Positions 13,525-60,846 of a stretch of 64,000 bases of DNA are shown in pieces. The position numbers and the translations under genes were made by a program. Numbering within the stretch: the stretch's first letter is position 1; every line of letters begins with the position of its first letter. The stretch is from Gemmatimonadota bacterium. Its GTDB lineage: Bacteria > Gemmatimonadota > Gemmatimonadetes > Longimicrobiales > Gaopeijiaceae. The DNA is taken from contig JAUIEJ010000002.1 in assembly GCA_030428885.1 (NCBI GenBank), positions 126,501 to 190,500 on the forward strand, read 5' to 3'. The notes under the pieces are model-generated. The model was given only the letters and a program-made list of their open reading frames with translations, searched no databases and was not told the origin of the DNA.

Positions 13525-16500
13525 GTGCCGAATTCTCCGATCCGCCGGGCCATTCCGCTCCTCGCCGCCGTCGTTCTGGCCTGCGACGGCGCCACCGCTC
13601 CCGACCCGCTGGACGGCACCCTGGACGGGGCCGTCCGGGTGGAGGGTACGGCGCTGTCCGGAGTGGAGGTCCGCCTGGATCTGCCCGATCCGGACCCGGA
13701 CCGGATCGGGATCACCGACGCCCGGGGCGAGTTCGCCTTCCACGGGTTGGAGGAAGGCACCTATCAGGTCACCCTGGGCGGGATCCCCGACCACGTGGAG
13801 GTGGACGGGCGGACATCCGGCGCGACCCTCGATCGAAGCCGTCCGGCGGCCCACCTGGCGTTCTCCGGACGCTTCAAGCGGGATGCGTCGGTGTCGGTTC
13901 GGGTCGTGGTGGGCGGGGAAGGCATCGCCGATCTGGACGTCACCCTCACGGGGCCGGAGAGCCGCAACACCGTTACGGGCCCCGACGGCCACGCCGCCTT
14001 CGACGGCCTGCTCCGGGGCATGTACGAGGTGGCGCTCTCGGGATTCGATCCCGACCGCCTCCTCTTCACCTCCACCACCGGGACCGTGGACACCTACGGC
14101 GCCGTGGAGGCGGACCTGCAGTTCGCCGGAACCGAGGTGCCCCGGGTCCCCGACGCCCCCGGGGACTTCACCGCCACCGCCGACGGCGCCTGGGCCGTGA
14201 CCCTGGCCTGGACCGATGTCGCCGACAACGAAGACACCTTCGTCCTGGAACGGGCCACGGGCCCCGAGGGCCAGTGGACCGCTCTGGCCGAGACCGGGCC
14301 CGACGCCTCCGGCTGGACCGACGACACGGCGATCCCCGCCACCGAGTTCCGCTACCGGGTGCGGGCCTGCAACGAACACGGCTGCTCCGAGCCCTGGCGC
14401 GAAGCCGCCGCCACCACCCCCGACGTGGCTCCGGAAGCACCCTTCGATCTCGTGGGCGGCGCCACCGGGCCCTTCTCCGTGGTCCTCACCTGGTCCGATG
14501 CCTCCACCAACGAGTCCCGCTTCGAGGTTCAGCGACGCCTGGGGAGCGGAGGGGCCTGGAATCCCCGGGCCACAACCGATCCCGACGTCACCACCTGGAC
14601 CGACTCCGAACTGGTGGGGGGCACCACCTACGGCTTCCGGCTCCGGGCGTGCAACGCCGTGGGGTGTTCGCCGTGGACCGACCCGGCCCAGGTGACCACG
14701 GTGGTGACGCCCCCCGGCGCCCCCACCGACCTCACGGCCACGGCCCTCTCCCACGACCGGGTGGAGCTCCACTGGACCGACGCCTCGGCCGCCGAAACCG
14801 AGTTCCGGGTCGAGCGCTCGGCCCAGGGAGGGCCGTGGAGCCAGGAGGCGGTATTGGCCGCGGGCGCCACCGCCTTCGTCGACGCCGCCGTCACCGGCGC
14901 CGCCACCTACGCCTATCGGGTGAGCGCCTGCAATTCGGCCGGGTGCTCCGGGTCGTCCAACGTGGCCACGGTCACCACCCCCGATCCGCCGCCGAACCTC
15001 GACGTGGAAGCCGTCTACATCGTCCAGCGGGTCCAGCGGGCCACGGGCGACGTGCCGCTGGTGGCGGGGATCGACGGCCTGCTGCGGGTGTTCCCCCGGG
15101 GAAGCCGGAGCGGGCTCACCGCCACCGCCGTTCGGGTGGAGCTCTTCCTCGGGGCCACCCCGGTCCAGAACACGGTGGTGCCGGCGCCCATGGGCACCAT
15201 GCCCACGGCCATGGACGAGTCCAGCCTGGGCGAATCGTGGAACGTCGCCCTTCCCGGCGCCCTGGTGCAGCCCGGCCTGGCGATCCGGGTCACGGTGGAC
15301 CCCGACGACGTGTTCGACGAGGGCGACGAGTCCGACAACGTCTGGCCCGGCGGGGGCGCGCCCCTGGCCCTGGACGTCCGGTCCACCCCGCCCTTCGAGG
15401 TGACCTTCGTCCCGGTGCGCCAGAGCGCCAACAACACGGTGGGATCGGTGTCGGCGGGCAGCATGGACAGCTTCCTCACCGACACCCGGCGCATGATGCC
15501 TTTCGCCGACGTGGACGCCCAGCTCCACGCCGAGTTCGTCACCGATCAGCCGGTGCTGTCGTCCGACGGCACGGGCTGGAGCACGGTCCTCAGTGAGGTC
15601 GCCGCCCTGCGTTCCGCCGAGGGAAGCGCCCGGGCCTACTACGGCGTGGTGCCCACCACCTACGGGTCGGGCGTGGCGGGAATCGGCTACGTGGGGTGGC
15701 CCATCGCCCTGGGGTGGGATCGGGGCGGGAAGGCCTCCGTGGCCGCCCACGAGTGGGGCCACAACTTCGGTCGACGCCACTCCCCCGGCTGCGGCGCCGG
15801 CAATCCCGACGGGGCGTATCCCCACGGGGGCGGGCGCATCGGAGCCTGGGGACTCGACGTCGCCACCTCGACCCTGAAGTCGCCCTCCTCCACCTACGAC
15901 CTCATGACCTACTGCGGTCCGGAGTGGATCAGCGACTACGTGTACGAGAAGGTGCTGGAGTTCCGGGGACCGGCCCCGGACGTGGCCGCCGCGTCGGCGG
16001 GAGCCCCGGTGGACGGGCTGCTGGTGTGGGGTCGGGTGGAGGACGGCGAGGTGATCCTGGAGCCGGCCTTCCAGGTCCGGGCCCCGGCCCTGCTTCCCGA
16101 CGCACCGGGCGCCGTGCGCCTGGAGGGCCGCAGCGGCTCCGGAACGGTCTTCGACTTCACCTTCGATCCGGTGGCGGTGGCCGACGCCCCCGGCGACGAG
16201 GGCCACTTCGCCTTCGTGGTGCCCCTGGCCCCGGCCGACGTGAGCCGACTCACCAGCCTGCGGGCGAGCCGCTCCGGACGCGAAGCCGTCCGCACCCGGG
16301 CGCCGGCCCGGGCCCCCGGCGCCCCGGCCCCCGAGACCCGGGTGGTGGCGGCGGGCGGAGGCGCCGTAGACGTCACCTGGGACGCCGCGACCCGCCCCAT
16401 GGCCCTGATCCGGGATGCCTCCACGGGGCAGATCCTCTCCTTCGCCCGGGGCGGGAGCATCCGCCTGTCGCCCCCGGCGGACGACATCACCGTGACCCTC

Positions 16501-16548
16501 TCCGACGGGCTGGGATCGGCGGAGACGCGAAGCGCGCGCTGGCGGTAG
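13525..16548 (+). CDS. secreted FN3-repeat metzincin metalloprotease, lipoprotein
   Basis: About 1007 residues. The start at GTG 13525 places a short basic region and hydrophobic stretch directly before a lipobox cysteine (AAVVLAC, Cys20); an ATG at 13438 would add 29 residues. Two prealbumin-like beta domains come first (residues ~30-200), then three fibronectin type III repeats (~210-495, each with the RVRACN/RLRACN/RVSACN strand). An extended CARDB-like region follows, then the zinc motif [11 protein letters not shown] at about 742-752, the metzincin HExxHxxGxxH. The Met-turn is plausibly in the YDLMTYC stretch. A surface-anchored protease for polymeric substrates is likely. Confidence 0.87.
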
Positions 16549-16569
16549 CCCGGGCCCCGGTGGCGGACG

Positions 16570-43691: not shown

Positions 43692-44183
43692 TCAGCCCGG
43701 CTCGTCGGCCGACGGACCGTAGGTGGCCGGCACGGGCCGATCCAGAAGGCGGAGGTAGACCCCGAGCTGGGCCCGATGGTGGATGGTGTGGTTCATGACG
43801 AAGCCGCGAAGCACCGCCACCTTCGGCATGCTCAGCACTTCCTGACCATCCTGCTTCATGGTCCAGGTGCCCATGAGGGTGGGGCCGTCGGCTCCGGCCA
43901 GGATCTCCCGGGCCGACGCCACGCTCCGATCGAACACCTCCAGGAGCTGCTCCACGGTCTCGGCCTGGGGCGGCTGGTACGGGCCGTCCATCTCGAAGAC
44001 GTCCTGATTCACCGTGACATCGACCCAGTTGGGAATGTCGGCCAGATGGACGGCGAGTTCCTTCACCGACATGGACTTCTCGTGGGGCTTCCAGTCCGCC
44101 CGGTCGAAGGGCACGCGCTCCAGGGTCCTGCGGGTGAGGGCCGCTTCGTGCTCGAACTCGGGCAGCATCATCGATCCATCCAT
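43692..44183 (-). CDS. DinB family protein
   Basis: 163 residues from ATG 44183, with GGGAGGTGG upstream. The four-helix DinB pattern appears as FEHEAALTRRTLERVPFDRADW, MSVKELAVHLADIPNWV and a C-terminal MNHTIHHRAQLGVYLRLL, giving the three-His metal site. Functions in the family range from thiol-transfer to unknown. It is convergent with the DAHP synthase gene. Confidence 0.87.
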   Translation of the reverse strand: MDGSMMLPEFEHEAALTRRTLERVPFDRADWKPHEKSMSVKELAVHLADIPNWVDVTVNQDVFEMDGPYQPPQAETVEQLLEVFDRSVASAREILAGADGPTLMGTWTMKQDGQEVLSMPKVAVLRGFVMNHTIHHRAQLGVYLRLLDRPVPATYGPSADEPG

Positions 44184-46630: not shown

Positions 46631-47146
46631 CTACCGGGGGTCCCCCGCCACCCCCCGGAGGATGCCCGCCGTGGCCACGACCTGTCCCGCGTGGCGCCGG
46701 GCGTGTTCGGCGGCGTGGAAGAGCAGGCCCTGGACCGTGCTGGGCAGCCCGGCCCGGCCCACCGCGCGGGGTTCGAGGAGCGTATCGGGGTCGGTGGTCC
46801 GGTAGGCGTCCAGGGTGCGGTCGCGGGCGGCCCGCAGGTCGGCCAGCAGTGGTTCCAGCGCCGCCGGCGGATCGCCCGGCTCGGCTTCGCCGGGAATCGC
46901 GGCCCGCTGCTCCCGGGTCAGGGATTCCCCCCGGGCGTAGGTGAGCAGCCGCTCGAGGCTCCCCGCTACGTGGCGCAGATGGAATCCGATGGAGGCCACG
47001 CCCCCGGGCCGGCGCCAGAGCAACGACGGGTCCAATCCCGCAACCGCCCGCTCCATGTCGGCCACGGCGTCGATCAACGAATGGGCCGCGGGCATCAGGA
47101 GATCCGGAACGCCGGCGACGGGCCCCTCCAGCCACGCTTCCGCCAT
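46631..47146 (-). CDS. DinB family protein, last gene of the nitric oxide/low-oxygen operon
   Basis: 171 residues from ATG 47146. DinB helix pattern with AVADMERAVAGLDPSLLWRRPGG, IGFHLRHVAGSLERLLTYARG, and a C-terminal LLFHAAEHARRHAGQVVATA giving the metal histidines. It follows the SufR-like gene by one base. Function unknown. Confidence 0.85.
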   Translation of the reverse strand: MAEAWLEGPVAGVPDLLMPAAHSLIDAVADMERAVAGLDPSLLWRRPGGVASIGFHLRHVAGSLERLLTYARGESLTREQRAAIPGEAEPGDPPAALEPLLADLRAARDRTLDAYRTTDPDTLLEPRAVGRAGLPSTVQGLLFHAAEHARRHAGQVVATAGILRGVAGDPR

Positions 47147-47147
47147 G

Positions 47148-47783
47148 TCAGTCCTCGCCGTTCAGGGTGTAGCAGCACGCCGCGTCGCCCGACGGGATGT
47201 GGCTCACGCGAACGGGTCGTTCGCCCAGCAGTTCCCGGACGAACCGCAACTCCGACCGGCACGGCGCCCGTGTGACCTCGACGAGGTTCTGCATCGGGCA
47301 ATTGCACAGTCGCAGGACCGTGCGTCCGTCGGCGTCGGTCTCGACGTGGGCCATGAAGCCCTCCTCCGTCAGCACCCGGGCGACCTCTTCGATCCGGGCC
47401 TCGCCCTCGAGACCCTCGAGGCGCCCACGCACCGCCACCCGGCGGCGCTCCACCTGGGCATCGAAGAACGCCCGCACCAGGTCGCCATGCCCCCGGTGTT
47501 CGAGATACGAGGCCAGGTCCTGCAGCAGTTGCCCTTCCTGGTTGGGAAACAGTGCATCGGCAGCCCCCGTGAGCCCATACAGGATCTCCGGCCGACCGGG
47601 GCCGCGGCTCCGGCTCCCCCGGCGCTCCACGAGCCCCTCGCGACGCAGGGCCTTCATGTGGGTGCGGATCGTCTCGACGCTGAGGTCGAGGCTCGCGCCC
47701 AGGTCCGGAATCGTCCCTGAGCCCCGGCGCTTGAGAAGCTCGAGCATCCGACTCTGGCTCTCGCCGATACGGGCCTGGATCAT
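47148..47783 (-). CDS. SufR-like HTH regulator with predicted Fe-S site
   Basis: 211 residues from ATG 47783. A winged helix-turn-helix comes first (MLELLKRRGSGTIPDLGASL, then SVETIRTHMKALRREGLV), followed by a wing RGSRSRGPGRPEILYGLT. The C-terminal half has Cys-x12-Cys (CPMQNLVEVTRAPC) and a late CC pair, as in the Fe-S binding SufR family. It lies inside the operon (overlapping the preceding DinB gene by four bases), so it probably senses O2, NO or Fe-S status and controls the operon it belongs to. Confidence 0.83.
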   Translation of the reverse strand: MIQARIGESQSRMLELLKRRGSGTIPDLGASLDLSVETIRTHMKALRREGLVERRGSRSRGPGRPEILYGLTGAADALFPNQEGQLLQDLASYLEHRGHGDLVRAFFDAQVERRRVAVRGRLEGLEGEARIEEVARVLTEEGFMAHVETDADGRTVLRLCNCPMQNLVEVTRAPCRSELRFVRELLGERPVRVSHIPSGDAACCYTLNGED

Positions 47784-48310
47784 GGCTCGGGACTCCCGGG
47801 CTCCGGAAGGGGAACGGCGTGGGCCCAGGCCACCGCCGGCATCCCACGACGGCGCCGCCAGGCCGTGAGGCGTCCCGCATGATGGCCCTCGTGATACGCC
47901 AGCGCGTGAAGGTGATGCCGAAGCGTGGGCTGGGCACGAGCCAGCGTGGGGTCCGGCAGCGGCCGATCCAGATCCGCCTCCACCGCGTCCCGTAGGATCT
48001 CGTCGCGCCGCCGCCCCGTGAACCTCAAACCCTCCGCCAGGATCTGGAGCGACGGGTACCGGGCCGCGTCGGCCACGGGAGCCGCGTCGGGTCCATGCCG
48101 CTCGAGGAGGAGGTCGAAATCGCCGGCCAGCGGGTCCCCCAGAAGGGAGAGCAGATATCGGTCGGACAGCAGGAGGTGCCCCACGGTCCAGGTCGGATGG
48201 GGTTCACCGGGTTCGGCCTGATGGCACGCCTCCTCCGGAGCGATCCCCTCCACCAGATCGAGGGTGCGCCGGCGGGCCGTTCGCAGACTCCAGCGCAGGA
48301 CGTCGATCAC
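47780..48310 (-). CDS. DinB-like protein of the nitric oxide/low-oxygen operon
   Basis: 176 residues from GTG 48310, which overlaps the preceding stop as GTGA. A DinB-type helix set is visible: LRWSLRTARRRTLDLVEGI, WTVGHLLLSDRYLLSLLG, and the C-terminal HHLHALAYHEGHHAGRLTAWRRR with the metal histidines. It stands between the small DUF2249 protein and the regulator. A metal-bound thiol or NO-related role is possible but unproven. Confidence 0.8.
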   Translation of the reverse strand: MIDVLRWSLRTARRRTLDLVEGIAPEEACHQAEPGEPHPTWTVGHLLLSDRYLLSLLGDPLAGDFDLLLERHGPDAAPVADAARYPSLQILAEGLRFTGRRRDEILRDAVEADLDRPLPDPTLARAQPTLRHHLHALAYHEGHHAGRLTAWRRRRGMPAVAWAHAVPLPEPGSPEP

Positions 48311-48552
48311 GAGGGCACCGGTGCCTTCTTCGTGACGTCGACGCACCAGGTCTCGGGGCCCGCCTCCCGGTAGTCGAAGGCGAAGGCGTGTTCGCCCCGG
48401 GTCGCCTTGAGCGTGTAGTACATGCATTGGGGGTCGTGATCGACGATGAGGCGCAGGACTCCGCCCTCCCGGAGTCCCTCGTACGCACCCATGATGCGCT
48501 CGAACCGATGTCTCGGCTCGACCGGTCGCACGTCCAGATCCATGCGGTCCAC
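48307..48552 (-). CDS. single-domain DUF2249 protein
   Basis: 81 residues. GTG 48552 has GAGGAGG six bases upstream and is preferred over ATG 48543. One DUF2249 domain: MDLDVRPVEPRHRFERIMGAYEGL, then GGVLRLIVDHDPQCMYYTL and a final beta strand with TWCVDVTKK. The domain is related in fold to SirA/TusA sulfur carriers and often occurs with hemerythrin or denitrification genes; its chemistry is unknown. It has one Cys after HDPQ and one in TWC. Confidence 0.85.
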   Translation of the reverse strand: MDRMDLDVRPVEPRHRFERIMGAYEGLREGGVLRLIVDHDPQCMYYTLKATRGEHAFAFDYREAGPETWCVDVTKKAPVPS

Positions 48553-48563
48553 GGTGGCCCTCC

Positions 48564-49283
48564 TCAGGTGTCGGGGGTAGTGAGGTTCACGAGTTCGCCG
48601 GAGCGGGCCGCGCCCCCGCAGCCCCACCCGCCCCGCCGCCCCAGCCAGGCCTGCCAGGCGATTCGATGGGCGGTGGAGGCGGGGGTCAGGACCACCGGGC
48701 CGTCGTACCCGGCCAGGGCCAGGCGTCCCGCCATGCCCCCGATCCCCCGTCCCTCCTGAAGCGCAGATTCGGGACCGCCCCCGTGGAGGCGAATGTGGCG
48801 CAGGTGTGGACCCACCGCAGCCAGCAGGTCGGAGACGGTGCGATGCGGGGCTTCGTCGGACCGATCCACGTCCCAGGCCACGTCGATTCCCCGCCCTGCG
48901 ACCTCACGGGCGGCCGGGACCGCACCGGGGCCTCGAACCACGACGGCCACGCGAGTGCCGTGGCCGACCACGCGGGTCGCTCGGGCGATTCTGGATGAGA
49001 GCCCGGCCGGGCCACCCACGAGGATCGGCACATCGAGTAGTTCCGCCACCCGGGCCAGCCGGAGGGCCGACCCGGCCCCGCGGTCCCGGAACGCCGACAG
49101 CGCCACGCCCCGGATGCGCACGCGATCGAGGGCGGCGGCGGCGAAAAGGGGCCGCTCGGTGTCGACCCCGTGGGCGTCTCCGGCCCGCAGCTCGAGCACG
49201 GCGAGACCTCGGCGCACCACCGCCTCGACCAGGTCGTCGAGGGAGGCATCGGGAAGCGCTCCCGAGCAGAGACCGAGTGTCAC
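48564..49283 (-). CDS. TIM-barrel protein (xylose isomerase/AP endonuclease-like)
   Basis: 239 residues from GTG 49283, overlapping the DUF2249x3 stop as GTGA. It looks like a compact sugar phosphate isomerase-like barrel: SLDDLVEAVVRRGLAVLELRAG, ILVGGPAGLSSRIARATRVV, IDVAWDVDRSDEAPHRTV, and LRHIRLHGGGPES, followed by GYDGPVVLTPAST. Metal ligands appear reduced compared with full family members. Function in the operon is unknown. Confidence 0.75.
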   Translation of the reverse strand: MTLGLCSGALPDASLDDLVEAVVRRGLAVLELRAGDAHGVDTERPLFAAAALDRVRIRGVALSAFRDRGAGSALRLARVAELLDVPILVGGPAGLSSRIARATRVVGHGTRVAVVVRGPGAVPAAREVAGRGIDVAWDVDRSDEAPHRTVSDLLAAVGPHLRHIRLHGGGPESALQEGRGIGGMAGRLALAGYDGPVVLTPASTAHRIAWQAWLGRRGGWGCGGAARSGELVNLTTPDT

Positions 49284-50143
49284 GCCCCACCCCGCTTGCC
49301 GATCTGGACCCTCCACACCGTGGGGCCCGCCTCCAGGTACGACCAGGTGAACTCGTTCTCGTGCTCGAACTGGAACTGATAGCGCAGCGGGAGTGGATCG
49401 TGGTCGTTGACGAGCACGAACGACGTGCCGGGGTCGAGGGCCTCGAAGAGACCGAAGATGGTGGGGTGCTTTTCCCGCGGCGGGATGATTCGAACATCGA
49501 GAATCCGCGCGGCGTCCACCACGCCCGATCCATCGGCGACGGGGTTCTCCCCCTCGACCCGTCGAATGAACACGCGCACCAGTCCGGGGGACTCCTCGCG
49601 AACCTCGTACCCGAATCCCCTCGCCTCGAGCTCCGGCAGCAGGAACCGGGGCACCCGGACGTTCAGTTGGACCAACGTGTGGCCATCCGGGAGGGACTCG
49701 AGAGCCGCCAGTGTGCGGACCATGGGTTCGGGGGGCTCCAGGCCCCGCACGTCGAGGACCACGACGTCCTCGCCCACCTCGTCGCCGGCGGTCTCTCCAT
49801 CGCCGGCGACGCCGGCGTCGAGCCCCGTCGAGGGCTCACCCGATGCGTCGTCGTCACCGGGGTAGAACCAGACCCGCCAGTCGTCGCCCCCCAGCCGCTC
49901 GGTGTAGTGACCGAAACCGTGGCGGCCCATCACCCCGTAGAGGGGCACCGGCTCGAAGATGGCCCGGAGGCACAGTGCTCCGCCGGGGGGCACTTCACGA
50001 AGGGCCGTCATGATCCGGTCGAACGGCTCTCGACCCGACCGAAGATCCTCGCGGACGTCGACATGCACCGTCTTGTCCTCAGGGATCGCCTCGAGGGCGG
50101 CGGGCCGCCCCTCCTCTCCGCCGTCGCTCGGTCGCATCACCAT
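49280..50143 (-). CDS. triple-DUF2249 protein
   Basis: 287 residues from ATG 50143, with GGAGGGAGC upstream. Three DUF2249 domains in a row: [20 protein letters not shown] (about 20-90, its second half [14 protein letters not shown]), [21 protein letters not shown] (about 120-190), and [23 protein letters not shown] (about 210-285, with HDPLPLRYQ). Linker between the first two is acidic. A triplicated DUF2249 is unusual and suggests a scaffold or multi-site carrier. It overlaps its neighbours on both sides. Confidence 0.85.
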
Positions 50144-50445
50144 GCTCCCTCCTGGATCATCCCCGGGTGCCAGCGTGGATCCCAGACCAGTTCCGGCACC
50201 ACGCGCTCGACTCCCGGGACGGCCGAGACGGCGTGCAGAATGGCGTTGGTCAGATGTTCCTCCATGGGGCAGCCCGGCGTGGTCAGGCTGAAGACCACGA
50301 TCGCCTCGCCGCCCGAGATCCGCAGGTCGTAGATCAACCCCAGGGTCACGAGGTCGAGGCCGATCTCGGGGTCGATCACGGTCCGGAGCGCGTCGCGCAC
50401 CTCCCGTTCCGACGGGCCGGCCCCGCGGCGCACACCGCCGGTCAC
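50137..50445 (-). CDS. MIP18/PaaD-type metal-sulfur cluster assembly factor
   Basis: 102 residues from GTG 50445, which overlaps the upstream membrane protein stop as GTGA. The family signature is [27 protein letters not shown] near residues 14-40, with [20 protein letters not shown] giving the conserved TTPGCP cysteine. Members help insert Fe-S clusters. Here it fits with RIC and the SufR-like gene in one operon. Confidence 0.9.
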
Positions 50446-51740
50446 GCGGGCCTCCGCCGCGCCAGGCCCAGCATCTGGAGCGCCTCCAACCCCACACCTG
50501 CGGTCAGCACTCCGGCGGCGGTACGAACGACGGTACCGTGGCCGAGAAGCACGCCCGACACCACACCGACCACCCCGAGAGTCAGCAGCACGGCGGCCCC
50601 GTAGGCGGTGGGCGCGTGGTACAGCTCCGACACCCGGGGAACCGGGCCTCGACCGGCCAGCGGTCCGAACCGGTGATACCACACCAGAAACGGCACAATC
50701 TTGTAGTAGTGGGCCGCCACGAAGAGGCTGATGCCGCCGACGATCAACGCCACGTAGGCCGTGGCGAGCCGCGGGTCGCCCCCCCCCACGACCACGGGGC
50801 CGGCCAGCACGAGGCCCACGGCGAGGAGCGCCAGGGCCACGGCGGCGAGGCGCATGCCCGGATCGAGGGACCGGCGGACCCGGTTCCGGTACAGTCGGGC
50901 CGCCTGGACGAGGAAGCACGCGAGGCCGGCTCCCATGAGCAGCGCCGGCCCCCAGCGGGAGAGGGGCTCGGAGGCGTGGTGGAACATCGCCAGCGCTCCG
51001 GCCCCGGAGGCGATCAGCCCCACGGCCCACCGCACCGGTGCCTCACCCACGCCGTGGCTGAGCAGGAACATCGGCAGCAGCCGGTGGCCCACACCGACGA
51101 TCACCAGCCCCACCCACCCGCCCAGGGCGAGGTGGAGGTGGACGCCCAGCGCCAGGAATCGATGCTCGCCCAGGAACCCCGACCACAGGTTGGTCGCAAG
51201 GGCCAGTCCCACGATCAGGGTGAGCAGGAGAAAGAACGCCGCCCCGGCCAACGCCCACCACGTCACGTCGCGCCGGGGGGCCCGGGCGAGGGTGGCGCCG
51301 AGGTTCGTCAGGAAGAGGCCGACTCCCACCGCCAGGGCGAGGGCCCCGACCAGGGCGGCCGCGGTGCGGCCGACCAGCAGTCCCCCGACGAACAGCGACA
51401 ACCCCGCCCCGTAGATGGCGAACGTCCAATGGGCCAGCCGCACCGACCGGATCGACCGACCCAGGGCCACGGGCACGAACTGGTACAGGGCCCCCATGAT
51501 CGAGGTGGTGATCCAGCCGAGGGTGAAGAGGTGGGTCACGCCGATCACACGAACCGAAGGATAGGCGCCCACCGCGAGTTCGGGGGCGACGACGACCAGG
51601 CCGACCGACCCGAGGGCGAGAAACACCAACGCCGCGGCGAAGTGCTCGCCCGGGAGCCGGAACGGCGGCGGCGGCGCCGTCACCCCAAGGGGATCGATCG
51701 GCGAGGCGGCCGGGCGGGTATCGAGCGACGGGCCGGGCAA
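50442..51740 (-). CDS. NnrS/COX1-like polytopic membrane protein
   Basis: About 432 residues, 12 or so hydrophobic segments; TTG 51740 (AGAGG upstream) is used, with GTG 51683 as an alternative. Histidines lie in membrane helices in [38 protein letters not shown], and [14 protein letters not shown], and in [16 protein letters not shown]. That pattern resembles NnrS heme-copper proteins, which protect against nitric oxide, and distant COX1-like subunits. The exact family is not certain from sequence alone. It is located between osmC and the Fe-S assembly gene. Confidence 0.75.
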
Positions 51741-51748
51741 GGGGGCCT

Positions 51749-52183
51749 CTAAGCGGACGACGTGTCCGTGAGTCGCGCCGAGGCCAGTTGGATATCCACC
51801 GCGCCCAGGGCCTTCGAGACGGGGCAGTTCTCCTTCGCCAGGTCCGCGATCCGCTGGAACTCCGCCGGGTCGGCCAGATCGGAGACGACCGCCCAGGTAT
51901 CCAGGGTGATCCCCGTGATTTCCAGCGCTACCGGATCGAACCGTACCGTAGCGGTCGTGCGGACCTCGTCGGGCGTGAAGCCGTGCTCCCCGAGAATGAG
52001 CGACAACGCCATGGAGAAGCAGCCGGCATGGGCCGCCCCGATCAGCGCCTCCGGCGTGGTCCCGTCGCCGTCTTCGAAGCGGGAGGCGAAGGAGTAGCCG
52101 CTCTCGAGGGCCCCTGCTCGGACGGCCCCTTCCCCGCCCTTCAGGGCACCCGTCCATCGAGCCTGCGCCGTCCGGACGATCAT
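51749..52183 (-). CDS. OsmC family peroxidase-like protein
   Basis: 144 residues from ATG 52183, overlapping the RIC stop by four bases. It has the OsmC pair of active cysteines in AAHAGCFSMALSLIL and ENCPVSKALG, and TTPEALIGAAHAG. The family reduces organic hydroperoxides with a thiol partner. It adds peroxide protection to the nitric oxide/iron-repair operon. Confidence 0.92.
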   Translation of the reverse strand: MIVRTAQARWTGALKGGEGAVRAGALESGYSFASRFEDGDGTTPEALIGAAHAGCFSMALSLILGEHGFTPDEVRTTATVRFDPVALEITGITLDTWAVVSDLADPAEFQRIADLAKENCPVSKALGAVDIQLASARLTDTSSA

Positions 52184-52905
52184 GCCTGGGCTCCCGGGGT
52201 ACCAGTGCTCCCAGACCCCAGCGCCTCGAGGGCCCGGGGGAACAATATGTTGTTCTCGACATGAACATGGCGGTGCAGGTCCTGCTCGAATTCCTGCAGC
52301 AGGGCGAACGTGGCCCGATACGTGGTGCAGGCATCGGCCGGCGGCGTGAAACCGTTCGTGAGATCCCGGATCCGCCGCATCGTCGCGCCCGCGTGGTCGT
52401 GGTCATCTTCCAGGGCCTTCACCACCGAGTCGGATACCGGACCGTCTTCATCGGCGGAGGTCGCGATCGCCGCCACCCGCGGGAACAGCACTGCCTCCTC
52501 GTCGTCCAGATGTCGGGTCATCTCATCCGAAAGCCCTTCGAAGAGGCCGCGGATCTCGACCAGCTCCGGATGTCTCGCGCCGTGGACGCGGGCTACCTTC
52601 TGCGTCCATGCGTCGAGTACGGGCAGCGTGCGCCGTACGTAGGTGTGGTGTTCGTCGACGATGTGTTCGACCAGCCGACCGAGCGGCCAGGTCCGGGGGT
52701 CGGACGCACCCCCCTCGTCGCGCCGGGCATCGACGGCCGACAGGGCATCGACGAGACGCTCCGGAGCCACGCCGGCCGCGGCGCAGGCCCGGGCCGCCGA
52801 TCGGCCTCCGCCGCAACAGAAGTCGATTCCGAGTTCCGTGAAGACCGCCGCCCGAGCGTAGTCTTCGGCGACGAGTTCGCCCACCGTGCGATCGAGGTAG
52901 TTCAT
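52180..52905 (-). CDS. RIC/YtfE-ScdA type di-iron Fe-S repair protein
   Basis: 241 residues from ATG 52905. The N-terminal DUF542/ScdA domain holds the double cysteine FCCGGG (Cys30-Cys31). The hemerythrin-like C-terminal bundle supplies iron ligands in LVEHIVDEHHTYVRR, MTRHLDDEEAVLFPRV, LEDDHDHAGATMRRIRDL, and LHRHVHVENNILFPRAL. RIC proteins repair Fe-S centres damaged by nitric oxide and peroxide. It is the first gene of the ten-gene minus-strand operon. Confidence 0.95.
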   Translation of the reverse strand: MNYLDRTVGELVAEDYARAAVFTELGIDFCCGGGRSAARACAAAGVAPERLVDALSAVDARRDEGGASDPRTWPLGRLVEHIVDEHHTYVRRTLPVLDAWTQKVARVHGARHPELVEIRGLFEGLSDEMTRHLDDEEAVLFPRVAAIATSADEDGPVSDSVVKALEDDHDHAGATMRRIRDLTNGFTPPADACTTYRATFALLQEFEQDLHRHVHVENNILFPRALEALGSGSTGTPGAQA

Positions 52906-53036
52906 GCCGTGTCTCGCTGTCGTGAACGGGGCTCGACCGTGATCCGGTCGAAAGGCTTGCGCGACTCAACCATCGACCCCACCCTTCTTATTGTCAAGAC
53001 ATCCCTCATGATAATGCGGTCCGTTGCGTCCTTTTC
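52906..53036. promoter_or_regulatory. divergent promoter region of the ric operon and a CopD-like gene
   Basis: The 131 bases between two starts include an AT-rich patch at 52981-53020. It holds TGTC-AA-GACA (52992-53001), an inverted repeat overlapping a consensus TTGACA -35 on the minus strand (52992-52997), and GATAAT (53010-53015), a possible plus-strand -10. The TTGTCAA heptamer (52991-52997) recurs in the promoter region upstream of the second SufR-like gene. Regulator assignment is inference. Confidence 0.5.
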
Positions 53037-53534
53037 ATGGCCCCTCTGCACTTCACCAACGTCTCGATCCACGTCCTCGCGGCCATCGTCTGGCTCGGGG
53101 GCATGTTCTTCTTCGCCCTGGTCGGCGCCCCCGTCCTACGCGGGGTGGATCCGCCCTCCTTGCGCACCGCGCTCTTCGAGGCCCTGGGGCGTCGCTTCCG
53201 GCGGATCGGCTGGGTCCTTCTGGCGATCCTCGTCGGCACGGGACTCACGAACCTCTGGTTTCGGGGACTCCTCGACGCCGATCTCCTGGGGTCGGCGCAG
53301 TTCTGGAACTCGCCGATGGGACGGTCGCTGGGCTGGAAGCTGGTTGCGGTGACAGCGATGATCGTGTTCAGCGCACTGCACGACTTCGTGTGGGGACCCC
53401 TGAGCGGTCGTCTTCCCGCGACGTCGGGCGAAGCCCGCCGTACCCGGCGCGTCGCGGCCTGGATCGGACGCGTGAACGCTCTCGCCGGCATCGTGACGGT
53501 GTTGGCGGCCGTGCGCCTCGCGCGCGGCGGATGA
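53037..53534 (+). CDS. CopD-like integral membrane protein
   Basis: 165 residues from ATG 53037, four membrane segments. The opening FTNVSIHVLAAIVWLGGMFFFALVGAPVL has the family's helix His and WLGGMFF. Later helices include RRIGWVLLAILVGTGLTNLW and GWKLVAVTAMIVFSALHDF, with another His. CopD/DUF2269-like proteins bind copper or heme in the membrane. It diverges from ric. Confidence 0.82.
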   Translation: MAPLHFTNVSIHVLAAIVWLGGMFFFALVGAPVLRGVDPPSLRTALFEALGRRFRRIGWVLLAILVGTGLTNLWFRGLLDADLLGSAQFWNSPMGRSLGWKLVAVTAMIVFSALHDFVWGPLSGRLPATSGEARRTRRVAAWIGRVNALAGIVTVLAAVRLARGG

Positions 53535-53562: not shown

Positions 53563-53964
53563 GTGAACAAACCGGATTCGAACCGCCCCACCGTAGGTTG
53601 GCTGTACCGCCCCTCCCCGGCGACGGCACGGCGAGGCGCGCTCCGTCACCGGGGTCCCCGGGTGCTGATGGCCCTCCACCACGACTGCGCCGTCTGCCTA
53701 AGACGGCGACGTCGCGAACTCGAACGGATGGCGCTGATGATCGGGGATTGGGGAGGACGATTCGAGACAACCTCGCCAGCGGGGAAAGCGCCGGGTCCCG
53801 ACGCGTGGCTCGCCGTCGTCGACGAATGGGATCGGGTGTTCCACGTCGCTCACATCGAACCCGGGCACACGTATCCGGATCCCGCCGAGCTCGTGGAGTG
53901 GGTCCGGTTCGTGGCGATCCAATGCGAGGAGTGCGAGGGACCGGAGGGACCGTGGCGCCCCTGA
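53563..53964 (+). CDS. thioredoxin-fold-like protein with CxxC motifs
   Basis: 133 residues from GTG 53563. Residues ~36-125 suggest a small thioredoxin/redoxin-like fold: ALHHDCAVCLRRRRREL with a CAVC active-site-like motif, AWLAVVDEWDRVFHVAHI, and a late second CEEC. The basic N-terminal stretch may not be translated; a GTG near residue 34 is an alternative start. It overlaps the folD-like gene by 13 bases. Family call is tentative. Confidence 0.6.
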   Translation: MNKPDSNRPTVGWLYRPSPATARRGALRHRGPRVLMALHHDCAVCLRRRRRELERMALMIGDWGGRFETTSPAGKAPGPDAWLAVVDEWDRVFHVAHIEPGHTYPDPAELVEWVRFVAIQCEECEGPEGPWRP

Positions 53965-54878
53965 TCCTCGACGGTCGCGCGCTGGCTGCGGCGCGCCACC
54001 CGGCGATCCGGGCACGGGCGCGGGCAGTCGCGACGCGACGGGGCCGCCCGCCCCGTCTCCTGATCCTGGCCTTCGAGGGGCCGAGCGGACGCGCGCCCTG
54101 GATCGACGGCAAACTGCGCGCCTGCCGGGAGGCGGGCGTCGACACCCGCACACTCGTGCTTCCCCACGGCGTGGGGACGGCGGAGACCCGGGCCAAGTTC
54201 AAGGCGTCCGTGGCGGCGGACGAGGCCGACGGGGTCTTTGTCCAGTTTCCCTTCCCTCCGGACGTCGACAGCGCCGGCGTGTCGGGCGTCATCCCGGCCG
54301 GGGCGGACATCGACGTGATGCGCCCCGACCGGGTGCGAGAGTACCTGGCTGGGACCGGCCCGACGCCGCCGCTGACCGTCACCGCGATCCTCGCTCTGCT
54401 CGACGCGCACATCGTCGAGCTCACGGACGAACCCGCCGTGGTGATCGCCGAAGGCACCGAATTCGATCGCATGCTGGCCGAGGCGTTGCGGCGACGGGGA
54501 GCCCAGGTGCGGATCGAACACCCCGACACCTCCGGACTGCGGGATCGCCTAGTGGGAGCGCGGGTGGTGATCACCTCCCTCGCCCGCCCCAGCGTCGTCC
54601 GGAGCGGGCACGTGGCGCCCCGCTCGGTGCTCGTGGACGGCGGCTACTTCAACCCCGGGGGGCGGGGAGACGTCGACCTCACCGACGGCATCGACCATCT
54701 GCGCGCCCTCGCCCCCGTGCCCGGCGGTGTGGGCCCCATGACCGTGTCGGCCCTCGTCGACGCCGTGGTGGACCGAGCCGAGCGGGCGGACCCGGAGGGA
54801 GCTCCCGCGGAACGCACCTCTGCTGACCCCGGTACTCTAGTTGGCGGTCGGTCTCTACGTTCCGACGGACACGAATGA
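53952..54878 (+). CDS. FolD-like protein with a degenerate NADP-binding site
   Basis: 308 residues from GTG 53952, with GGAGGG upstream. FolD-like marks: a substrate Lys in APWIDGKLRACREAG, the Gln in VFVQFPFPPD, ADIDVMRPD at the place of DVDGF, and a closing PVPGGVGPMT. The NADP-binding GRSxIVGxP motif is missing, replaced by VVIAEGTEFDRML, so the usual dehydrogenase is doubtful. A long, unusual C-terminal tail ends in an ATGA overlap with the stress protein gene. It may be a divergent paralogue with a new role. Confidence 0.75.
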   Translation: MAPLILDGRALAAARHPAIRARARAVATRRGRPPRLLILAFEGPSGRAPWIDGKLRACREAGVDTRTLVLPHGVGTAETRAKFKASVAADEADGVFVQFPFPPDVDSAGVSGVIPAGADIDVMRPDRVREYLAGTGPTPPLTVTAILALLDAHIVELTDEPAVVIAEGTEFDRMLAEALRRRGAQVRIEHPDTSGLRDRLVGARVVITSLARPSVVRSGHVAPRSVLVDGGYFNPGGRGDVDLTDGIDHLRALAPVPGGVGPMTVSALVDAVVDRAERADPEGAPAERTSADPGTLVGGRSLRSDGHE

Positions 54879-56987: not shown

Positions 56988-57547
56988 TCAGAGCATCGCG
57001 GCAAGCCGCGTACGCCAAAGCGGCAATCGGAATGCGCCGAGGAACGCCTGGGTCACCACCGTTTCCCCCCGGCCCACGCCGCACCTTTCGGCCTCGATCC
57101 GTACCCCCACCCCCTCCGCTCCGAGGCTCTGCTGCACCGCCTCCGCTACGTCGGCGGTGAGACTCTCCGGCTCTGGAGCCGATGAGCGACGAGTTCGACC
57201 AGACCGGCCAGCTTCGGGAACCCCACCACCAAAGGTCCCAGGAGGTAGGCGACGTGGGCACGGCCCCCGAAGGGCACGAGTTCATGTCGACAGAGTGACG
57301 TGAAGGGAATGTCGCGCACCACGACCGCCTCACCGCGTGCCTCGGCGAAGCCGGCGTCGCCGATGAGGTCCCGGGGATCGGTCCCGTAGCCGCTAGTGAG
57401 GCGCCTAAAGGTCTCGGCCGCACCCCGTACGTCGACGGCCTGGGTCTCCCTGGCCGGTGCCCCGATGCAAGCGAGGAGCGCCGGCAGCGCCTCGACCACG
57501 GGGTCGGGCTCGTCCCGCGACTCCCGGGGCGTGTCGGCCTCCGACCG
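56988..57547 (-). pseudogene. frameshifted GTP cyclohydrolase I (folE), copy 2
   Basis: Most of FolE can be read: DTPRESRDEPDPVVEAL, then FRRLTSGYGTDPRDL, EAVVVRDIPFTSLCRHELVPFGG (a zinc-ligand region in which the second His of CEHH is Glu) and AHVAYLLGPLVVGFPKLAGLVEL. After HRLQSR the frame is lost and hits a stop at 57146, but another frame continues the family's C-terminus: SLTADVAEAVQQSLGAEGVG and TQAFLGAF, ending at 56988. Upstream it runs in frame with a flavoprotein remnant. A broken gene. Confidence 0.75.
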
Positions 57548-57955
57548 GACCGTACCCGAGACTGCCCTCACGATGCGCCCCGCCGCTCGGTCCCGTTCGA
57601 TGTGGAGGGCGTCCCAGTCGGCGGTGGTCCGAAGAGGAAGCCATTCCTCCGGCGCAGTCCCGGCGAGATCGTCCTTGGAGAGGTTGGGACGGTCGTAGGG
57701 CGCCGCGGGATCGGGGTCGATCAGGATCAGTTCACCCCGATGTCCCGCCTCCCAAAGGGCCAGGGCCGCCGCTGTTACCGCTGCCCCGGCAGGGCAAGTC
57801 GCCTGAACGGCATGGACGCCTTCTTCGGTCCGGAGCAGGAGGAGCGCCTCCTCGCCCACCCTTCCCGCCACCGTGCCGTCGGCGGGGAGGGAGGACGAAG
57901 GCAGGCCCTGCAGGAGGTCGGGGAGCGTGTGGGAATCGATGCTCGTCGAGCCCAT
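57548..57955 (-). pseudogene. internally deleted Rieske-flavoprotein (AIF-like) remnant fused to folE
   Basis: From ATG 57955 the first ~130 residues resemble Rieske-containing AIF-type oxidoreductases: MGSTSIDSHTLPDLLQGLPS, GEEALLLLRTEEGVHAVQATC. Right after that Cys the sequence jumps to the later part, AAVTAAALALWEAGHRGELI and APYDRPNLSKDDLAGTAPEEW, so the Rieske ligands and the GxGxxG of FAD binding are gone. It then runs in frame into the folE copy. The reading frame is open but the product cannot bind its cofactors. Confidence 0.72.
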
Positions 57956-57960
57956 GGCGC

Positions 57961-59105
57961 TTACAGACTCTTCAGGTATTCGATCAGGTCGACCCGCTGC
58001 GACGCAGACAACCCGAGATCGAGGCACGACTCGTAGTGATCGACCACTTCCGCCACGGTCGCGGCACTCCCGTCGTGGAAATAGGGCGCATGCTGCCAGA
58101 GCGCCCGAAGCGGAGTGGACCGGTACATCCCGGTCGCGGCACGCTGCGACAGCGTAGCGTCCATGCAGGTCTCCGATGGCTCGTGGCGTCTCTGGGCGGC
58201 ATCGGTGAGTAGCGGCCCCGAATGGCAATCGGCGCAGCCTACGTCCTCGAACACCCCGCGGCGGTGCGGTCGAACGACCTATCGGGGGGCCGGGGAGCCG
58301 CCAGGCTCAACTGGTACTCGAGGAGCGTCCCGAGGAGCGGGCTCACCAGGTCCTCGTCCCAGTCCACCGCCACCCCGATGCGGGGGTCCTCGAAGTCGCC
58401 GTGGCCGTGCATCTGGGTGACGGCCACGTAGGCGTTCCAGTACGAGACAGACCCGTCGCCCGTGTACGTCTCCAGCGCCACACCGTCGAGCCCGTAGGCC
58501 GGGGGAATCACGACGGGGTCGCTGATCCCGTCGATGTTGAAGCGGGGGTCGAACATCCCCGCCCCCCACGACGTGAGGACCGCCTGAGCGGAGGGGTCCT
58601 GGAAGAACGGCGACAAGGAGACGATGAGGCCCGGGTTGAGGTCGACGTTCGCCCATCCGTCGAGGCGGCGTCCGATCCCGGGCATCACCGCGTCGTCGAC
58701 CGTTGAGTGGCAGAGAGCGCACGTAATTCCCATGCGGGTGAGATTTCCCTGATCGTCGACTTCTCCCTTCACCCCCAGTACCGCGTCGAGGCGGATCAAC
58801 TCCACCGTGGTGGCGGGATCGGTGAGGTCGACGGTCGCCAGGATGCCCTCGGGAAGGGCATCGGCGTCGACCTTGAGACCCACCGCCAGTGCGGTCACCG
58901 GATCCACGGCGGCCTGGATCACCTGATTCATGGCCAGGGTGTCGGTCCACCAGGTTTCGTTGCCGAAGGTCTCGAACCGAAACACCTCCCTGGGGTCGGG
59001 CGGCGGATCCGGGTCTTCGCCGCCCATGGGCGAGTCGTCGCAGGCGGTGGAGAGAAGAGCGGCGAGGGCGGCCGCCGAGAGCAGAAGGAGGGTACGGGTG
59101 TTCAT
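57961..59105 (-). pseudogene. multiheme c-type cytochrome/peroxidase-like gene, frameshifted
   Basis: Two frames make one gene. From ATG 59105: lipoprotein-like signal (LAALLSTACDDS), then a CxxCH in GITCALCHSTVDDAV and the LLEYQLSLAAPRPPDRSF stretch, which runs into a stop at 58239. The next frame, from about 58250, continues with VFEDVGCADCHSGPLLTDA (a second CxxCH) and the C-terminus MYRSTPLRALWQHAPYFHDG. One missing base in GCGGGG near 58256 would restore the frame, so either the gene is broken or the base was lost in the data. It is part of the run DUF4142-cupredoxin-cytochrome. Confidence 0.78.
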
Positions 59106-59473
59106 CGGTCCGACTCCGAAGCGGAAGAAGAGGCCTCGACCACGAGGCGGGCCTCCATGACGGGATGGAAGGCACAGATGTAGGTCCCGGTCCCGGGAGC
59201 GCCGGCCACCATCCGCCAACGCTCATCCCGGGCCAGGGGCGGAGATGTCCAGGCCGAATCACGGGCCGTGGCCGTGTGAGGCACGAAGTCGCGGTTGATC
59301 CAGACGATGGTGTCGCCGGGGCTCACCTGGAGGTCCGGCGGATGGAACGCCATCTCGCGGATCTCGACCGTATGCGTTCGGCGTGGCGCCGGCCCGCCCT
59401 CGCCGGCACAGCCGACGAGGACGGGAGCCGCCCACAGGATTCTCCACACGGGACGCGTCCGTCTCGGGCTCAC
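59102..59473 (-). CDS. cupredoxin lipoprotein (plastocyanin-like)
   Basis: 123 residues from GTG 59473, overlapping the DUF4142 stop as GTGA. A lipobox lies in APVLVGCAG. The blue-copper set is visible: His in FVPHTATA, then Cys-x2-His-x2-Met in YICAFHPVM. It would carry electrons at the cell surface and fits the neighbouring cytochrome. Its stop overlaps the cytochrome start by four bases. Confidence 0.9.
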   Translation of the reverse strand: MSPRRTRPVWRILWAAPVLVGCAGEGGPAPRRTHTVEIREMAFHPPDLQVSPGDTIVWINRDFVPHTATARDSAWTSPPLARDERWRMVAGAPGTGTYICAFHPVMEARLVVEASSSASESDR

Positions 59474-60003
59474 CGGCTCGCAAGCTCGGCGCTCAGCCGC
59501 CGAGCGTGCTCCAGGTGCGCGCGCAGGGCGGGAACGACCGCCTGCAGTAGTCCCTTGAGCTCGTCGTTCGAGGCGTTCGGGACGAGGGTGCTCTCCACGG
59601 CGCCGATCACCGTCTCGTGAAAGGCCACCTCGTTGTCCATGTACGCCTGATCGAAGGCGGTGCCACGAAGCCGGCCCAACGCGTCCCGAACCTCCTGCGC
59701 GCGCGACGCCAGGCCGCGACTCGTGTCGTTGTCCATGGGAGTCACGCCGAGGCGTTCGGCCAGGGCGGCAGCCTGCTCGATGACTCCGTTGTGGTCGCGG
59801 ATCATGGTCTCGGCGAAGGCCCGCACCCGAGGGTCCGCCGCTCGCTCCAGGGCCTGCTCCGCGCCTACGACGTCGAGATGATTGGCGGTCACCGCGATGT
59901 GGGCGATGGTCGGATCGTCGAGTCCCTGTGCTGCGGCCGCGGTGGTCGTGCCCGCACCCATAAGGGTGCCGAGAAACAGAAGGGTCTGCACTCTGCCGTT
60001 CAT
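59470..60003 (-). CDS. DUF4142 family exported protein
   Basis: 177 residues from ATG 60003, with AGGAG upstream. A signal peptide (RVQTLLFLGTLMGAGTTTAAAAQ) precedes a ferritin-like helical domain: IAHIAVTANHLDVVGAEQALERA, VRAFAETMIRDHNGVIEQAAAL, and FDQAYMDNEVAFHETVIGAVESTL. DUF4142 is common in exported stress proteins. It is the first gene of the run with the cupredoxin and cytochrome. Confidence 0.88.
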   Translation of the reverse strand: MNGRVQTLLFLGTLMGAGTTTAAAAQGLDDPTIAHIAVTANHLDVVGAEQALERAADPRVRAFAETMIRDHNGVIEQAAALAERLGVTPMDNDTSRGLASRAQEVRDALGRLRGTAFDQAYMDNEVAFHETVIGAVESTLVPNASNDELKGLLQAVVPALRAHLEHARRLSAELASR

Positions 60004-60087
60004 GTTGAGTCTCCTCGCTCGTCCCGAGCGGTTGGAGGGGAGGGATATCGATGTCGATGAACGGCAAGATGGCGCCCATTCACCCCT

Positions 60088-60117
60088 TTGTCAATTATTT
60101 CATTGTGTAAATATATT
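60088..60117 (+). promoter_or_regulatory. AT-rich promoter of the second SufR-like gene
   Basis: TTGTCA (60088-60093) and TATATT (60112-60117) are 18 bases apart, in the most AT-rich stretch of the window. The heptamer TTGTCAA also occurs in the divergent region of the ric operon. On the opposite strand it reads TTGACA, a possible -35 for the DUF4142 run. So both flanking units may be controlled from here. Confidence 0.5.
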
Positions 60118-60204: not shown

Positions 60205-60846
60205 ATGTCCGCTCAATCCCCCGTGCTCGATCGCCTCATGGGCGGCACCCGTCTTGCGGTCCTGGAACTCCTTCTGAGGACCGATCGAACGGTGCAGGAG
60301 ATCGCTGAGGAAATCGGTGTCAGTTCCAACGCGATCCGCGGACACCTGGCCGCGCTGGAACGAGACGGCCTGGTGATCCAGGGCGACGCCCGTCGCGACA
60401 CCGGCGGAAAGCCGGCCGCCGTCTATTCCCTATCCAGAGAAGCGGACGAGCTGTTTCCGAAGGCCTACGCGTTCGTGTTGGAAGGACTGCTGCGCGTACT
60501 CGACGAACGGGGCGGTTCGAACGAGGTCCGGTCCGCCCTGGAGGAGGTCGGGAGCCGGGCCGCAACCCCGGCCTCCGGATCCGAGAGGGACCGGGTCGCC
60601 GCCGCCGCCGAAGCGCTCCGAGGGCTGGGGGGCACGGTGGAAGTGCGGCGGGAAGGCGACCACTGGCGCATCCAGGGATTCGGTTGCCCCCTCTCGGCGG
60701 TCACCTCCCGGGACGCCCGGGTATGTGGCCTGGCGCAGTCTCTGGTGGAAACGACGACCGGAGGAACCGTCACGGAGGTCTGCGAGCGGGGCCGCAGATC
60801 CCGTTGCGCGTTCACGATCCGTTTTCCGGCGGATCGGCCCGGCTGA
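60205..60846 (+). CDS. second SufR-like HTH regulator with Cys-rich C-terminus
   Basis: 213 residues from ATG 60205. A winged helix-turn-helix (LAVLELLLRTDRTVQEIAEEIG, then SSNAIRGHLAALERDGLVIQ) is followed by RDTGGKPAAVYSLSREADEL. The C-terminus has Cys-x12-Cys (CPLSAVTSRDARVC), then CERGRRSRC, the Fe-S layout of SufR. It diverges from the DUF4142-cupredoxin-cytochrome run, a natural target. It resembles the regulator in the ric operon. Confidence 0.85.
   Translation: MSAQSPVLDRLMGGTRLAVLELLLRTDRTVQEIAEEIGVSSNAIRGHLAALERDGLVIQGDARRDTGGKPAAVYSLSREADELFPKAYAFVLEGLLRVLDERGGSNEVRSALEEVGSRAATPASGSERDRVAAAAEALRGLGGTVEVRREGDHWRIQGFGCPLSAVTSRDARVCGLAQSLVETTTGGTVTEVCERGRRSRCAFTIRFPADRPG

Follow-up and report, generated by a model that had tools for sequence, protein, structure and literature searches.

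Several bacteria have genes for DUF2249 proteins beside nar, nir or nor genes, and this proximity to denitrification genes is already known (PMC6282519, PMC11218638). In Thermus thermophilus, drpAB encode a single-DUF2249 protein and a protein joining DUF1858 to a double DUF2249, beside the nitrate respiration genes (PMC6282519). In the denitrifying H. mediterranei, all four DUF2249 proteins are induced, and one is part of an iron-sulfur (Fe-S) carrier ATPase (PMC11218638). Here, a gene unit with DUF2249 proteins is described from a 64-kb window (the whole stretch of DNA that was analysed), which is part of contig C8 of a Gemmatimonadota genome assembly (5.39 Mb, 95% complete). The unit comprises ten genes at positions 46631-52905 of the minus strand. 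Its core, composed of an NnrS-like membrane protein, a MIP18-type protein, DUF2249 proteins, a TIM-barrel protein and often, in relatives, ApbC/Mrp, is probably a conserved module, often found in nitrite respirers, by which metal centres stay functional under nitric oxide (NO) made or met by the cell. The Gemmatimonadota are a phylum prominent among partial denitrifiers.

The unit resembles drpAB in its DUF2249 proteins, but in the Thermus drp genes viewed, no TIM barrel, NnrS-like protein, MIP18 or SufR-like regulator is annotated adjacent. The nor-DUF2249-nnrS-nirK clusters of Rhizobium and Agrobacterium, unlike the unit, lack a TIM barrel and a SufR-like gene; they have Crp/Fnr regulators and, as a separate gene, a classical NnrS. 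A plasmid of Rhizobium phaseoli has DUF2249, HCOH (31% identity to the membrane protein of the unit), a double DUF2249, MIP18 (41%), NnrS and nirK beside the nor genes. As this plasmid carries the TIM-less form between nor and nirK, that form is wider than the Gemmatimonadota unit. The HCOH and NnrS families share a 12-helix heme-copper-oxidase (HCO) fold, and a genomic link with denitrification and DUF2249 is known for them as cited in PMC11218638. The HCOH protein of the unit differs from NnrS, forming a distinct subfamily fixed beside MIP18 and DUF2249. With SufR/Rv1460 (PMC6034842, PMC9045647), the regulator of the unit shares the winged helix, the cysteine spacing C-x12-C-x27-C and a predicted repressor-type site over the promoter; its predicted target, however, is an operon linked to NO and respiration and not suf. 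Finally, the RIC/YtfE/ScdA gene of the window is a full family member, but RIC is not regular in the conserved unit, where stand-alone ScdA_N proteins recur instead.

In the literature searched, neither the TIM partner nor the SufR-type regulon nor a fixed core across phyla was found. With this unit, DUF2249 acquires constant partners and a predicted operator, and TIM-DUF2249 offers a minimal pair suited to expression and assay. It also points to a SufR-type Fe-S sensor over NO-linked genes in Gemmatimonadota.

Gene string, conserved core and local additions

The ten open reading frames are all present and consecutive. They overlap by 4-7 bases or, provided that the NnrS-like gene does start at its TTG, are no more than 11 bases apart. 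This layout had been proposed in an earlier, sequence-only reading, and the same ten genes were picked by a codon-usage gene caller blind to it, with one start differing. They are probably read as a single transcript. The string opens with a RIC/YtfE/ScdA di-iron Fe-S repair protein (52180-52905, 241 amino acids), which overlaps by 4 bases with an OsmC family peroxiredoxin (51749-52183, 144 amino acids). The gene of the NnrS-like protein (50442-51740, 432 residues) follows after 8 bases with a TTG start at 51740, or after 65 with a GTG start at 51683. The MIP18/DUF59 Fe-S assembly factor (50137-50445, 102 amino acids), D3 with three DUF2249 domains (49280-50143) and the TIM-barrel protein (48564-49283, 239 amino acids) come next, overlapping their predecessors by 4, 7 and 4 bases, respectively. 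After a gap of 11 bases lies D1, a single-DUF2249 protein (48307-48552). Two overlaps of 4 bases then join D1 to DinB-a, a DinB-superfamily protein (47780-48310, 176 amino acids), and DinB-a to the SufR-like winged-helix regulator (47148-47783); a single base separates the latter from the second such protein, DinB-b (46631-47146, 171 amino acids).

In relatives, gathered by DUF2249 and profile searches in the order, the phylum and named genome contigs, the core order is SufR-like, often ApbC/Mrp, NnrS-like, MIP18, double DUF2249, single DUF2249, TIM and DUF2249. After it come variable genes, namely DinB-b and genes for a cupin, a FolD-like protein and a small COX1-like protein. Not every copy starts with SufR. 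The part of the core that runs from the NnrS-like gene to DUF2249 is found in 13 Gemmatimonadota genomes of several families, including the window's own (one of the 13 has an incomplete last gene, where the contig stops). It recurs in the same order in a Thermoleophilia metagenome-assembled genome (MAG; L058). The order in Myxococcota is NnrS-like, MIP18, DUF2249 proteins and TIM-DUF2249, and the regulators differ. One of the ten carriers in the order, G034, has a core without TIM and D1; the G048 unit is truncated by contig ends. The DUF2249 proteins belong to the unit, as first proposed.

The full set of ten genes is absent from all other genomes examined. The sequence-only reading took the ten as one system, to be refuted by lack of conservation beyond this genome; such conservation holds for the core, which occurs in at least three phyla and is often close to genes of nitrite and nitrate respiration, and fails for the full set. 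RIC, OsmC and DinB-a, found in no other unit examined, are local additions to the conserved core. RIC lies 3 kb downstream of the unit in one relative only (L060). It was also compared across a sample of 154 genomes of the order, in which the unit was scored by its NnrS-like gene (10/154). RIC is present in two of the ten unit genomes and in 14 of the 144 others (p = 0.28); the supposed tie to the DUF2249-bearing unit is thus not seen, and RIC was rejected as a core member. Stand-alone small ScdA_N proteins, equivalent to the N-terminal domain of RIC, recur near the unit in relatives, often with a cupin. DinB-b, a recurrent accessory, is also part of the unit or its neighbour in L057 and L040. 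In G001, a genome of the same genus (L162), there are two SufR-like genes, one adjoining DinB-b and one with a cupin, and no NnrS/DUF2249/TIM core: either it was lost there, or it was gained in the window's species.

Most family labels of the earlier reading hold (RIC, OsmC, MIP18, DUF2249, DinB, SufR-like). The RIC gene, the sole one in the genome, scores 239.8 bits on TIGR03652 (cut-off 204.7), with ScdA_N and hemerythrin domains. OsmC reaches 146.6 bits on TIGR03562 and MIP18 74 bits on PF01883; PF10006 is matched three times by D3 and with 76.6 bits by D1. Both DinB proteins clear the curated cut-off of PF12867 (58.9 and 61.7 bits vs. 24.8; E 9e-16 for DinB-a and 1e-16 for DinB-b), and H56, H59, H144, H148 and H152 of DinB-b, candidates for the metal-binding His triad of the superfamily, are kept in all three copies compared. 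The label that had to be dropped is NnrS. The membrane protein has no match to the Pfam NnrS family (PF05940), on which ground classical NnrS membership was rejected, and matches only COX1 (E 0.002). Its AlphaFold model (predicted local distance difference test score, pLDDT, 86) has a 12-helix heme-copper-oxidase subunit fold. In Foldseek, the best match is the cbb3 subunit CcoN (TMq 0.75, E 2e-7), and NO reductases match too. Five invariant histidines (H33, H70, H201, H203 and H229) are candidate heme ligands. Judging from the model, the protein would be better named a heme-copper-oxidase-fold relative. Pei and colleagues reportedly described HCOH families, including NnrS, in 2014, and the membrane protein of the window agrees with these. 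In MIP18, the motif DPE-X26-31-T-X2/3-C is present in 15 of 16 unit copies, including that of the window; it is the DUF59/SufT-MIP18 motif (PMC9045647).

D3 is a DrpB-like double DUF2249 domain fused to a DrpA-like single domain, which are two separate genes in most relatives. The triple fusion is also seen in L057, L033 and L177. DrpB is defined by DUF1858 plus two DUF2249 domains, and D3 has no DUF1858; among the relatives, L056 has DUF1858 joined to a double DUF2249 over the cut-off and L175 just under it. The middle domain of D3 matches the TusA model (E 8e-7), but PPEP stands where TusA has CPxP, and the catalytic Cys is absent.

The TIM-barrel protein belongs to no Pfam family, and its fold is taken from a predicted structure, made on a relative (pLDDT 82), which is xylose isomerase/D-tagatose 3-epimerase-like. 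Xylose isomerase-like sugar epimerases have a Glu/Asp/His/Glu metal site. Of the Asp, Glu, His and Cys residues of the TIM protein, only E31, E172 and C222 are at least 90% conserved in 15 copies, and no His is. The xylose isomerase-like metal site is hence not recovered and the match is one of fold only; a role as sugar epimerase is unlikely because the usual metal site is missing. The protein is conserved in 14 Gemmatimonadota genomes, with a conserved GWGCG at the C terminus, and all 14 strong-scoring Gemmatimonadota TIM genes have the same type of DUF2249 gene after them. This partner retains DHDPxCMYY, as D1 does in the window. One locus (L124) consists of SufR, TIM and DUF2249 alone, and in four Myxococcota loci (L063, L175, L176 and L177), TIM and DUF2249 form a single polypeptide. 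Since they are constantly adjacent, and fused in Myxococcota, the TIM protein and the last DUF2249 probably work as one unit. A tentative proposal, which we hold to be possible though somewhat doubtful, is that the pair is a new NO-response enzyme or carrier using the conserved Cys of each motif (GWGCG and DHDPxCMYY), for instance dismantling iron-nitrosyl centres or passing iron or sulfur to the HCO-fold protein, under a previously undescribed SufR-type NO-sensing regulon. A plasmid search revealed no TIM homologue, and none of the TIM, NnrS-like, D3 and SufR-like proteins had a convincing relative in a PDB sequence search.

SufR-like regulator and predicted operator

The regulator scores 59.7 bits on TIGR02702, under the equivalog cut-off of 178.8. 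The spacing C-x12-C-x27-C is exact in 10 of 11 unit copies, including that of the window, and is x28 in the remaining one. In SufR of M. tuberculosis (Rv1460), C203, C216 and C244, spaced x12/x27, are needed for function (PMC6034842), and damage of the cluster by NO and reactive oxygen species lifts repression (PMC9045647).

Upstream of the unit, seven relatives share a palindrome, TTATCAAGG-N6-CCTTGANAATA, whose right half shares bases with a -35 box of the TTGACA type. When trained on the seven and not on the window, a matrix places the predicted operator at 52989-53014 (TTATCATGAGGGATGTCTTGACAATA on the minus strand), its right half again overlapping TTGACA. With a score of 21.0, it is the top-scoring site of the 64-kb window, situated 83-109 bases before RIC, though the SufR-like gene sits at the opposite end of the operon. 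The training sites score 17.7-26.7 when left out one by one, and the highest maximum in 20 simulated 64-kb sequences is 17.9. Only one other intergenic region among the 61 upstream regions of the window exceeds 9. The sequence-only reading had claimed an Fe-S-type regulator encoded inside the unit, and the SufR-like gene and the operator-like palindrome before the unit agree with it. The unit seems, from these sequence features, to be switched on by an Fe-S sensor protein. The window's genus has several SufR-like paralogues; therefore, binding of this operator by this regulator is proposed from gene position in relatives.

In the whole genome, the site pattern with at most two mismatches occurs in three places only: before the unit, before a Rieske-HCOH-cbb3-like operon and before an ApbC/Mrp gene. 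This pattern was composed after the sites of the own genome had been viewed, and its rarity therefore counts more than the match. It matches few genomes of the order in its strict form because the exact site varies by lineage; conclusions rest on the matrix scan. By that scan, an operator shared with nirK and the eNOR-type reductase discussed below was unsupported.

In the own genome, the copy before the cbb3-like oxidase operon (L119:4444-8596), which starts with genes for a Rieske protein and for a COX1-like protein of 151 residues, is exact. A perfect palindrome stands in G188 ahead of a cbb3-like operon running into SufR and the unit. In G001, which has no unit core, the palindrome lies between FolD and cupin-SufR, with FolD divergent from it. 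Within the window, a weaker copy (60086-60111, score 18.8) is located between a DUF4142 gene (59470-59991, minus strand) and a SufR-like/ArsR-type regulator (60223-60846, plus strand).

Nitrogen-oxide respiration and competing explanations

Inside the order, the unit is associated with the nitrite reductase NirK. At E ≤ 1e-30, NirK is found in all ten unit genomes compared with 25 of the 144 others (p = 1.2e-7), and by genus in 9/9 with the unit vs. 17/52 without (p = 1.8e-4), in tests that remove shared ancestry only partly. Counting only hits over the curated cut-off, the numbers are 7/10 and 21/144 (p = 2.7e-4), the hits of three of the ten being NirK-like and under it. This association fits the earlier claim that the unit is tied to NO chemistry. 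In the own genome, NirK is over the cut-off (C8:203497-204558) and lies, with an eNOR-type reductase, 20-25 kb from the unit. A heme-copper subunit 1.8 kb before NirK has GHSSQQ at the position of the cross-linked Tyr of oxygen reductases (the Gln was placed by eye), and a cupredoxin subunit is directly upstream; Gln replacing the catalytic Tyr is the published mark of eNOR (PMC8756737). This two-subunit reductase directly 5' of nirK, outside the window (L118:11392-13736 and 15498-16559), would be called cytochrome c oxidase by ordinary annotation. In the Myxococcota genome G534, a stretch of 16 kb holds nar genes on one side of the unit and nirK on the other; an NtrC/NorR-type sigma-54 activator adjoins the unit.

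A module serving metal centres under NO might operate as follows. The SufR-like repressor, carrying an Fe-S cluster, would bind at the palindrome overlying the unit's -35 region; by analogy with mycobacterial SufR, NO or loss of the cluster would release it, and the unit would be transcribed. The HCO-fold membrane protein may bind heme and deal with NO or iron-nitrosyl species, as suggested by NnrS. MIP18, ApbC/Mrp and, in the own genome, RIC would restore Fe-S centres, judging from their families. The TusA-fold DUF2249 proteins may be carriers of sulfur, iron or a signal, the last one being paired with TIM.

Several points weigh against this NO-protection reading. NirK is absent from three Gemmatimonadota carriers outside the order (G188 and G227, 99-100% complete, and G375), and neither the Thermoleophilia MAG nor G430, the Myxococcota MAG with the fusion, yielded it. 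The matrix scan gave no operator upstream of nirK or eNOR and no good site in the upstream regions of L055, L039 and L033; the operator is not convincing in every relative. Moreover, the regulator is under its family cut-off, RIC is statistically unlinked to the unit, the G188 unit follows a cbb3-like oxidase operon, and no expression or biochemical data on unit members were found. Some of these points would be expected if the core instead provided maturation or assembly factors for heme-copper enzymes (cbb3-like oxidase, eNOR) at low oxygen, with an indirect NO link. The G188 unit is directly 3' of that operon with its perfect palindrome, the other strong operator sites of the own genome precede the Rieske-HCOH-cbb3-like operon and the ApbC gene, CopD, heme A synthase and small HCO-like proteins are repeatedly encoded near units, and some carriers miss NirK. 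We nevertheless consider this explanation unlikely, as the NirK association is complete inside the order and the Myxococcota and Rhizobium copies lie within nar/nir/nor islands.

A mainly signalling unit, with DUF2249 proteins that sense nitrate or nitrite as has been proposed for DrpA/DrpB of Thermus, appears less probable still. It would agree with the relatives having the DUF1858-DUF2249-DUF2249 architecture of DrpB (PMC6282519) and with the ~46% identity to Thermus plasmid DUF2249 proteins adjoining nar. However, the operon encodes a DNA-binding regulator of its own, a TIM barrel, a heme-type membrane protein and proteins of Fe-S assembly, and neither a kinase nor any other partner for an output was observed. 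A periplasmic location is reported for DrpA, whereas the DUF2249 proteins here show no evident export signal by inspection. That stress genes were packed by chance into one operon in one lineage, with no shared function, is highly improbable. It is possible for RIC, OsmC and DinB-a, which are not inside other units, but is refuted for the core by an order kept across three phyla, the TIM-DUF2249 fusion and the common operator-like palindrome.

Neighbouring genes

An Rfam scan of the window revealed no RNA element. A CopD-like membrane protein (53037-53534, plus strand; PF05425) is divergent from the operator region; it is regarded as accessory, with homologues near the unit elsewhere. The FolD-like protein (53952-54878, plus strand; PF02882/PF00763), also accessory, lies within the unit or close to it in six loci, and its score is far under the NCBIfam FolD cut-offs. 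A third DinB-family gene (43692-44171) lies outside the unit, 2.5 kb off, and a similar gene is near SufR-DinB in G001 (L162:1240-1737). Farther along the window, a short fragment with a RoxA-like cytochrome c motif (57961-58164) is followed by a gene (57146-57955) whose C-terminal part is GTP cyclohydrolase I-like; together (57146-58164), they are possibly the remnant of a di-heme peroxidase-type gene. Immediately 3' of the unit in L176 are genes for an S-formylglutathione hydrolase and for a class III alcohol dehydrogenase of the S-nitrosoglutathione (GSNO) reductase type.

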